Below are positions 7,334-9,778 of a stretch of 43,905 nucleotides of DNA, piece after piece. Location: NCBI GenBank assembly GCA_018058545.1, contig JAGOZU010000018.1, positions 1 to 43,905 on the forward strand, written 5' to 3'. The notes under the pieces were generated by a model. It searched no databases and had not been told where the DNA came from. It worked only from the letters and a program-made list of their open reading frames with translations. Every line of letters starts with the position of its first letter. Position 1 is the stretch's first letter. The translations under genes and the position numbers were made by a program. Source of the DNA: Promineifilum sp. GTDB lineage: Bacteria > Chloroflexota > Anaerolineae > Promineifilales > Promineifilaceae.

Positions 7334-9778
7334 TCACCGGTCAGAGGCAACGGCAGTCACCGACTCCCCCTCTTCCATCGCCACCAGTCGAAATGCCTTC
7401 GTCGAATCCTCCAGCGGCAATGTGTCGGCATCGGCCGCCAATGTCCGCCGGTCGGTGATCAGCGTGAGCGGCCCGGCAGGGATTAGGCCCACGACGAGCG
7501 ACTTCCGCGCCACCAGCGCCTTGCCTTTGGCATTGGCCCGCGGCGCGGCCGCCACCCAGTCAACCCGCAACCGGCGAGCGAAGCCGTCGGCCAGGATCAG
7601 CGCGATATCACCCTCAGGCGCGGCCGCCAGCGCGGTCGTCACCCGGTCGAAGGCGGCGTCGCGGCCGGGGTTCATTGCCTGCACGCCCGCCAGGGGGATG
7701 TTCGCCGCCGGCCAGCGAACGGCCCGACCGGCCTCGGTGACAATGACGATGTCCATGCTGCGGTCGATACCCTGAGCCGCCACCGGAACACCGGACGGCG
7801 GATTATCGAAGGTCAGCGGCACGGGAGCCTCGATGGCGGCGCGCAGTGCGTCGAGCGGGTAGGCGCGCGCGTAGCCGGTCGAAGTCACCAGCAGCAATCG
7901 CTCCATCTCGCGCGCGGCCGTCCAGTTGACCAGTGTGGCGACCGTCTCGCGGTTGGCGAAGCGGTAGGTATCCTCGATGCCCAGCCCGGCCCCCCGCAAG
8001 TCGGCCAGCTGCCGCGCGGTGGTAAGCAGAAAGCGGAAGCGAGAGGTGATGAGCAGAAGCTGGTCATCCGCCGGGAGGCGCAGGGCGGCGATGAAAGTGA
8101 CGTCATCGGGGTGAGCGTCACCCGGCAAGCAGACGCGCAGGTCAACCCCAACGCGCGCGCCGGTGCCCGGCCGCCCCAACAAAACCAGGCTATTCCCCTG
8201 ATCGACCGCTCTCTCGCTCCCCTGTTCCTCCAGGATGATTCGCCGCTGCAGCAGTTCCAGATTGGCCGGCGGGATGTTCAGCCTTCCGCCAGTGGTCTCC
8301 GGCAGGTCAGCGAAATCCGCCGGGGTGTGGGCGGGAAGATCGACTTCACCCCGTTCCAGGTGTCGGCCGATGATACCCAGCCCGGCGGTGACGCTGCTGA
8401 ACGGGTCGATGCTACGCACTTTGGCCTCGCCAAAGTGACGGCCCAGCATCTCGTGGAAGACGGGGATGAGCGCCGAGCCGCCGGTGCGGATGACACTGTC
8501 GATCTGGTCCGGCCGCAGGCCCGACCGGCTGACCGTCTCCAGCAGATGATGTTCGATAGCTCGCGTCTCGCCACGGATGATCCCCTCGAACTCGCCGCGG
8601 GTGACGAATTCATGGACCTCGAAGCCGGGGCCATCGAGGGTAATGGCCGCGCCGCGTTTGTCGGAGAGCGCGCGCTTGGCCTCCTCGACAATATCGAACA
8701 TTTTCAGGCCATAGTTGCTGCCGGCCAGAGCGATGAGGGCCTCGATCTGGCTTCGGCGCTGGGCGGTCTGGGCGATCTCGCGCAGGATGGGCTTGTTCTC
8801 GGTTGACTGGAGTTCCATGATTGTCTGCCAGTCGGAAAAGGTGTCGTAGATCCATTGCGGCACGGTTAACGCCTTGTGGCGCGGGCCGTAGAGACTGCCT
8901 TCGCCAAAGTGTCGCGGCAACTTGGCCCGCACGAGCTTGCGGTCGAAGACATCCCCGGCCACGGGGATGCCGCCGGTGGCCAGCACGCGAGGCCGCCCCT
9001 CGCCCAGCCGCATGACGGTGATGTCCAGCGTACCGCCACCGAAGTCGAAAATCAGGGCGTTTTCCGGCCGTGTCAATTCCTGGGCATAGCTCCAGGCAGC
9101 CGCCACCGGCTCGTATTGCAGATAGACCGTCCGGTAGCCGGCGCGAAAGGCGGCGTGGAGCAGCCGCGCCTCGGCCAGGCGATCGCCTTCCTCGTCAGCG
9201 GCGAAGTGGACGGGGCGGCCCATAACCACCTGGTCGATCTCACGCCCCAGCAGCTTCTCGGCGCGGGCTTTGGTCACCGTCAGATAAAGGGCGATGAGGC
9301 TGTCCAGCGAATAGTACGTCCGGCCGATGACCGTGCCGGGGTAGTTGACATCGCGCAAGGCCGTTTTGATGGACAGGAACAGCCGCCCGGGCGAGAGAAT
9401 ATCGGCCCAGGAATAGACGTCTGTGACGTAGAAGACGCGATCGGCGATAACTTCGATCTCGCCCACCCAAACGCGCTGCATCCTGACCGGACGATTGAGG
9501 TTGTGCTGGAAGTAGAGGTCGATAGCCGTCCGGCCGATAGTGACGGCTTGCTCGTTGGTGATGTATAGCGCGGTACGGGCGACGCGCGGGTTGGGAGCCG
9601 AGGGGTCGATCGGCAGGATATCGACAGCGCGATCATCCGCGCCACGGTCGTGGACGACACGGTCGTGGACGACACGGTCGTGGACGACACGGTCGTGGAC
9701 GACACGGTCGTGGACGCCACGATCGTGGACAACCGCCATGCCGCTGTTTGTGGTGCCGAAATCCATGCCGATGATCAT
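7334..9778 (-). CDS. Hsp70-family ATPase with C-terminal GyrA-like beta-pinwheel
   Basis: An 814-residue protein. Residues 1-480 form an Hsp70/actin-fold nucleotide-binding domain. It has phosphate-1 (GMDFGTTNSG), phosphate-2 (IFDFGGGTLDITVM, about 243-256) and the adenosine motif (RTGGSALIPVFHEML, about 431-445). No DnaK substrate-binding domain follows. Residues about 560-812 instead show repeated blocks such as DQLLLITSRFRFLL, ERLLLVTSTGYARAYPL, MDIVIVTEAGRAVRWPA and GDIALILADGFARRL. These resemble the blades of the GyrA/ParC C-terminal beta-pinwheel (family knowledge; the assignment is inference). A pentapeptide repeat lies just after phosphate-1. The ATG at 9778 is preferred; a TTG at 9811 is the alternative, and neither has a strong ribosome site. 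It is divergent from minC. Confidence 0.8.
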   Translation of the reverse strand: MIIGMDFGTTNSGMAVVHDRGVHDRVVHDRVVHDRVVHDRVVHDRGADDRAVDILPIDPSAPNPRVARTALYITNEQAVTIGRTAIDLYFQHNLNRPVRMQRVWVGEIEVIADRVFYVTDVYSWADILSPGRLFLSIKTALRDVNYPGTVIGRTYYSLDSLIALYLTVTKARAEKLLGREIDQVVMGRPVHFAADEEGDRLAEARLLHAAFRAGYRTVYLQYEPVAAAWSYAQELTRPENALIFDFGGGTLDITVMRLGEGRPRVLATGGIPVAGDVFDRKLVRAKLPRHFGEGSLYGPRHKALTVPQWIYDTFSDWQTIMELQSTENKPILREIAQTAQRRSQIEALIALAGSNYGLKMFDIVEEAKRALSDKRGAAITLDGPGFEVHEFVTRGEFEGIIRGETRAIEHHLLETVSRSGLRPDQIDSVIRTGGSALIPVFHEMLGRHFGEAKVRSIDPFSSVTAGLGIIGRHLERGEVDLPAHTPADFADLPETTGGRLNIPPANLELLQRRIILEEQGSERAVDQGNSLVLLGRPGTGARVGVDLRVCLPGDAHPDDVTFIAALRLPADDQLLLITSRFRFLLTTARQLADLRGAGLGIEDTYRFANRETVATLVNWTAAREMERLLLVTSTGYARAYPLDALRAAIEAPVPLTFDNPPSGVPVAAQGIDRSMDIVIVTEAGRAVRWPAANIPLAGVQAMNPGRDAAFDRVTTALAAAPEGDIALILADGFARRLRVDWVAAAPRANAKGKALVARKSLVVGLIPAGPLTLITDRRTLAADADTLPLEDSTKAFRLVAMEEGESVTAVASDR
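9641..9730. repeat. six 15-bp tandem repeats inside the Hsp70-like gene
   Basis: Six head-to-tail 15-base units run from 9641 to 9730. The four central ones are identical (GACACGGTCGTGGAC) and the outer two differ by one or two bases. On the minus strand they encode a VHDRV/VVHDR pentapeptide repeat inserted after the first phosphate loop of the Hsp70-like protein. Identical units in a coding sequence suggest recent slippage expansion and possible copy-number variation. Confidence 0.9.

Follow-up and report, generated by a model that had tools for sequence, protein, structure and literature searches.

An Hsp70-type nucleotide-binding domain paired with a predicted gyrase-type beta-pinwheel in Promineifilum sp. 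and other Anaerolineae

The window analysed here is a stretch of 43,905 nucleotides from Promineifilum sp. (contig JAGOZU010000018.1). On its minus strand it carries a gene for a protein of 814 AA, which very probably consists of an Hsp70-type nucleotide-binding domain (NBD) without a substrate-binding domain (SBD), followed by a beta-pinwheel of the kind found as C-terminal domain (CTD) in GyrA and ParC. The pairing of these two domains is real, old and apparently undescribed. The reading frame starts with an ATG at position 9778 and ends with a stop codon at 7334-7336. Its homologues are of equal length and share the position of the start codon with it, and fused full-length homologues of 770-830 residues are present in many Anaerolineae. 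The full protein was modelled with AlphaFold (mean pLDDT 84.3, pTM 0.79). All results are computational, and the majority of the genomes used are metagenome assemblies. The following features were assigned, with the basis of each assignment given in brackets:

7334..9778, minus strand: whole gene, Hsp70-type NBD fused to a GyrA-type beta-pinwheel, 814 AA plus stop codon (ORF list, homologues, model)
8339..9778, minus strand: Hsp70/actin-fold NBD, residues 1-480 (NF008673, PF00012, fold match, conserved residues)
9643..9730, minus strand: VHDRV-type insert in the first hairpin of the NBD, 15-bp tandem repeat in 5.9 copies (TRF)
8099..8338, minus strand: linker, residues 481-560, including a helix at 507-518 (model, pLDDT, sequence)
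7337..8206, minus strand: GyrA/ParC-type beta-pinwheel, residues 525-814 (profile, NCBIfam models, model strands)
8147..8194, minus strand: degenerate first blade, residues 529-544, at the site of the GyrA-box in GyrA, the box being absent here (model)
8018..8095, minus strand: blade 2, residues 562-587 (model strands)
7856..7942, minus strand: blade 3, residues 613-641 (model strands)
7808..7834, minus strand: IEAPVPLTF loop, residues 649-657, strongly conserved (alignment)
7709..7786, minus strand: blade 4, residues 665-690, followed by a loop without the 'RPMGRT' pivot segment of GyrA (model strands)
7565..7642, minus strand: blade 5, residues 713-738 (model strands)
7502..7540, minus strand: basic loop RANAKGKALVARK, residues 747-759 (alignment)
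7430..7495, minus strand: blade 6, residues 762-783 (model strands)
7343-7360, minus strand: closing strand, residues 807-812 (model strands)

The NBD (residues ~1-480) was matched by PF00012 with an E-value of 1e-24. Its best family match was NF008673 (residues 160-468, E 2.9e-43), which represents the YegD type. YegD (PRK11678) is an NBD-only protein, and an SBD-less form of ~450 residues is found in Chloroflexota as well. The window protein differs from YegD in its score, 148.3 bits against a curated equivalog cut-off of 331, and in the pinwheel, which is added in this family either by fusion or within an operon. Residues 1-482 of the model align with the NBDs of DnaK and BiP with Z-scores of 33-37 (VIA-align); Foldseek and VIA-align searches using the full-length model tested the NBD only, because this domain fills the match lists.

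The residues D6, T9, E223, D245, G247, T250 and D252 are kept in the window NBD and the phosphate motifs (GGGT) are present. In an alignment of 25 homologues, the equivalents of DnaK D8, T11, P143, E171, D194, G196, T199 and D201 are invariant. The column of the catalytic Lys70 of DnaK, however, holds Ile in the window protein, V or I in 20 of the 25 homologues and K in two. An earlier note on this DNA had stated that all nucleotide motifs are kept; this is correct for the D, T, E and GGGT residues, but not for the equivalent of Lys70. Judged from these positions, binding of ATP is likely, while hydrolysis by the chemistry of DnaK is doubtful and may be weak or absent, since most members have another residue in place of the catalytic lysine. 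The 15-bp repeat at 9643-9730 (97% matches) is in frame and adds ~30 low-complexity residues of the VHDRV type. Residues 22-49, which cover this insert, have a pLDDT < 50 and are disordered in the model; the insert was seen in no aligned relative.

With DnaK and other Hsp70 proteins the family shares the NBD fold and the phosphate motifs, but SBD, lid and the 'VLLLD' linker are missing: neither that linker nor an SBD was found in the window protein, either in the sequence or in the model. The match to PF00012 is confined to the NBD positions of this family, and a profile of residues 520-814 retrieved only GyrA and ParC from the PDB. The SBD is thus missing, as had been claimed.

This C-terminal profile, made from 22 homologues, was compared with all PDB sequences. 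Thirteen sequences were found at E ≤ 1, and all of them are CTDs or subunits of GyrA or topoisomerase IV (best E 3.2e-18). NCBIfam matches within residues 525-814 of the window protein were likewise to GyrA/ParC models only. These models match by their own positions 527-795, i.e., by the C-terminal domain, and the topoisomerase core with the catalytic tyrosine is absent. When homologues were compared with the GyrA models, 16 of 17 matched PRK05560 (best E 1e-10) and 14 of 17 matched TIGR01063 (best E 1e-11). The single-blade family PF03989 gave no match in the window protein itself, where it is too weak on its own; among the homologues, 6/17 matched at E ≤ 0.1 (best 3.6e-5).

The model of the full protein has repeated three-stranded blades at residues 525-814. 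The earlier note had counted about five repeated blocks; five clear three-stranded blades are indeed predicted, but there are six when the degenerate first one is included. Its comparison of the blocks with the blades of the GyrA/ParC CTD agrees with both profile and model, as does its view that the protein is not a standard chaperone. A DnaK-like SBD, a structure without a propeller and a lack of similarity to GyrA_C had been named beforehand as outcomes that speak against it, and none of them was found. The strand layout of the window pinwheel was read from the full-protein model; the fold match by structure search was obtained with the model of a separately encoded pinwheel, described below. 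In profile, six-blade layout and predicted fold the domain thus resembles the GyrA/ParC CTD (PF03989; SCOP b.68.10). It differs from it in that it is not attached to a topoisomerase, has no GyrA-box and has lost most of the arginines which contact DNA.

A second architecture exists in relatives, in which the NBD is encoded as a protein of ~450 residues by itself. At 22 such NBD-only loci, a pinwheel gene on the same strand is located directly upstream, either overlapping or within ~90 bases. This partner gene has ~350-460 codons (~390 residues) and is matched by the profile made from the pinwheels of the fused proteins; a stand-alone partner gene was found at 0/39 fused loci. The model of the partner (pLDDT 85.4) comprises an N-terminal coiled coil and the pinwheel. 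In a Foldseek search against the PDB, its first 20 matches were all GyrA or ParC (E 2e-15 to 1e-7), and the next match had an E-value of 0.11. VIA-align gave Z 27.6 over 286 residues for E. coli gyrase and 27.2 for 1suu, the first unrelated chain following at Z 5. At sequence level, 19 of 20 partners matched GyrA models, the best match to a PDB sequence had an E-value of 8e-26, and an alignment of fused with split pinwheels extended over 286 columns (E 1.5e-18).

Among 249 genomes sampled from the class, an NBD homologue (E ≤ 1e-60) is present in 49 and a stand-alone partner (E ≤ 1e-40) in six, all of which are among the 49. The six partners are on the same contig as the NBD gene and adjoin it, except for one genome with a distance of ~1.3 kb. 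In this genome (L019 / G029:C56), the partner is upstream of the NBD gene and a 409-codon frame without a Pfam match is located between them. The two parts are fused in some genomes and form an operon in others, which is strong evidence that they work together. Since the pinwheel is a separate upstream coiled-coil subunit in related bacteria, it is a dedicated partner and not an accidental tail.

In a tree of the NBDs, the main fused group (29 sequences) and the split group form one clade with a support of 99, outside of which four fused proteins (L021, L092, L099 and L101) are placed. In the pinwheel tree, all fused pinwheels including these four group together (100/99), and the fused and split pinwheels fall outside the clade of GyrA and ParC of the same phylum (97/90). 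The two trees therefore disagree on the four outliers, and because of long branches the number of fusion events is uncertain. A recent origin of the pinwheel by copying from the host's own gyrase seems unlikely. Elsewhere, the genome of the window encodes two ordinary DnaKs, a GyrA and a ParC-type protein, so the Hsp70-pinwheel protein is an addition to these. A scan of a collection of genome contigs with the C-terminal half as a single sequence gave no match, whereas an alignment used as query did find matches. Plasmid records contained NBD-type homologues only and no full-length one, and in viral contigs only distant matches to the Hsp70 NBD were found (about 23-38% identity).

Two further groups of proteins were seen in these searches. 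NBD homologues of ~600-636 residues carry a different C-terminal extension, which is not a pinwheel by profile. In L088, L089, L090, L091, L093-L096 and L102 (600-636 AA), the ~150 AA of this extension are conserved and may form a beta-sandwich; a scan of one member against Pfam gave no match. A stand-alone GyrA CTD of ~350-390 AA is encoded in seven genomes from the family of the window (L190-L196, e.g., L190:5017-6120:+); it matches the GyrA model with an E-value of 1e-41 and has a near-intact box, QRRGGMG. No protein of this kind was found in a search of the window's genome.

To wrap DNA, GyrA relies on the GyrA-box together with an arginine in each blade (PMC7210945). The contact columns were taken from an alignment that included 13 GyrA domains from this class, onto which the published residue numbers were mapped approximately. 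Box positions and loop arginines are present in 13/13 of these GyrAs. None of the 36 fused and 20 split proteins that were inspected contains the box, Q(R/K)RGG(R/K)G, and its R and K, found in 13/13 GyrAs, occur in 0/22 fused proteins. The loop arginines are retained in 4/22 fused proteins in blade 2, in none of the 22 in blades 3 and 4, and in 4/22 in blade 6. The blade-4 loop with the 'RPMGRT' pivot of GyrA is deleted in all fused (22/22) and split (20/20) pinwheels, and the contact positions of the split partners are generally similar to those of the fused proteins or worse. A strongly conserved loop of the form IEAPVPLxF replaces the loop which contains the DNA-contacting arginine in blade 3 of GyrA. 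Blade 5 is the exception, in that its contact position is basic (K/R) in 21/22 fused proteins, though only in 4/20 split partners, and a conserved basic stretch KxNxKGK..ARR belongs to it, of which RANAKGKALVARK is the window version. By these residues, the canonical DNA-wrapping surface is gone from the predicted pinwheel. The suggestion of the earlier note that the propeller binds DNA is hence unsupported, since the GyrA-box is gone and, except for blade 5, so are most of the arginines that all 13 GyrAs possess. Given that the box and most contact loops have been lost, with a conserved IEAPVPL loop in their place, the most likely ligand of the pinwheel is a protein, or else some other molecule that is not wrapped, rather than DNA in wrapped form. 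Because of the basic loop of blade 5, DNA or some other anionic ligand is still conceivable. Net charge was dropped as a test for DNA binding, because the local GyrA domains span -5 to +7 and are not separated by it from the pinwheels studied here.

Hsp70 proteins are known for peptide-binding effectors. We propose that the window protein is an ATP-dependent switch with a repurposed gyrase pinwheel as effector, which would bind a protein more likely than wrap DNA; the probability of this reading is estimated at about 0.5. The six-bladed, GyrA-derived pinwheel would take the place of the SBD. Binding and release of ATP would open and close the two lobes of the NBD, and this motion would alter the way in which the pinwheel is held as well as what is gripped by it. 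The change of grip upon ATP binding is suggested by analogy to the working of the Hsp70 NBD. A wider reading has somewhat better than even odds, namely that these proteins make up a two-part, ATP-driven machine of Chloroflexota that has not been described before. In it, an Hsp70-type ATPase would act via a gyrase-type pinwheel, fused or encoded by two genes, and would grip either a protein or DNA by a new surface.

That the ligand is DNA after all is possible, though rather unlikely. According to this alternative, the pinwheel binds or bends DNA via another surface, the loop of blade 5, and the NBD gates this with ATP, for example to organise or segregate the nucleoid. All beta-pinwheels described so far are DNA-binding modules of type IIA topoisomerases (PMC3797127). 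The basic residue and the conserved stretch of blade 5 in the fused proteins are in line with such a machine, and some members are basic overall with a pI of up to 10. However, besides the absence of the GyrA-box from both forms, the contacts of blades 1, 2, 3, 4 and 6 are mostly non-basic or deleted, and the split partners largely lack the charge in blade 5 and have a mean net charge of -3.5.

It is improbable that the protein acts on topoisomerases themselves, as a helper or decoy whose pinwheel mimics the CTD of GyrA or ParC and contacts these proteins or their partners, the NBD being an ATP-dependent assembly factor or inhibitor. The homology to these CTDs would fit, but the pinwheels branch outside the same-phylum GyrA/ParC clade. 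A protein of GyrA/ParC length which matches the pinwheel profile (L034:16710-19265:- and L054:193-2670:+) is encoded within 10 kb of the fused gene in L034 and of the split pair in L054. This may be chance; two such neighbours in ~40 loci are weak evidence, and most loci have none.

The window gene is adjoined by the divergent genes minC, minD and minE, and on its other side by genes for a Usp and an MFS protein. Homologues of min, Usp and MFS genes were found near the fused gene in 0 of 32 other loci, three of them from the same genus, although some of the flanks are short. When the neighbourhoods were clustered, the fused gene had no partner that is conserved, and no other gene recurs widely, so the neighbourhood says nothing about function. 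The divergent position next to minCDE, to which attention had been drawn, is correct, but that it has a meaning is not supported, as it is not conserved even in the three genomes of the same genus. A role as an accessory of cell division tied to MinCDE was accordingly rejected as very improbable, being largely refuted by the non-conserved neighbourhood; matches of the NBD to MreB- and FtsA-like profiles could be cited for it, but reflect the common actin fold. Least probable of all is an ordinary Hsp70 chaperone with a diverged SBD, which the strong similarity of the NBD to DnaK-type proteins might suggest, but which is contradicted by the C-terminal profile matching GyrA/ParC only, the alignment of fused with split pinwheels, the lack of both SBD match and Hsp70 linker, and the two normal DnaKs already present in the genome.

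Both domains are known, while their pairing appears to be new. A literature search found no paper with both 'Hsp70' and 'beta-pinwheel', most subscription journals being outside its scope. HSP70 proteins without the peptide-binding domain are part of GTPase-centred conflict systems (PMC7159879) and resemble the present family in that an SBD-less HSP70 is combined with another module. In the parts of that article consulted, they accompany GTPases and DnaJ/TPR proteins, and no pinwheel is mentioned. Should the reading as a two-part machine be true, topoisomerases would no longer be the only proteins with a beta-pinwheel. The conserved pairing, present across many Anaerolineae in both fused and operon form, shows that an Hsp70 NBD can couple to a quite different effector and that recruitment of the gyrase pinwheel outside topoisomerases has taken place. 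The family is a compact, testable system for what else the ATP cycle of Hsp70 can drive, and for what a pinwheel binds without the DNA-wrapping residues.

One further arrangement was observed in three loci of the Rhodospirillales type (L107, L108 and L110), in which an NBD-only gene is located directly downstream of a gene for a MYG1-type exonuclease; this neighbour matches PF03690 with an E-value of 1e-76 in L107 and L110.
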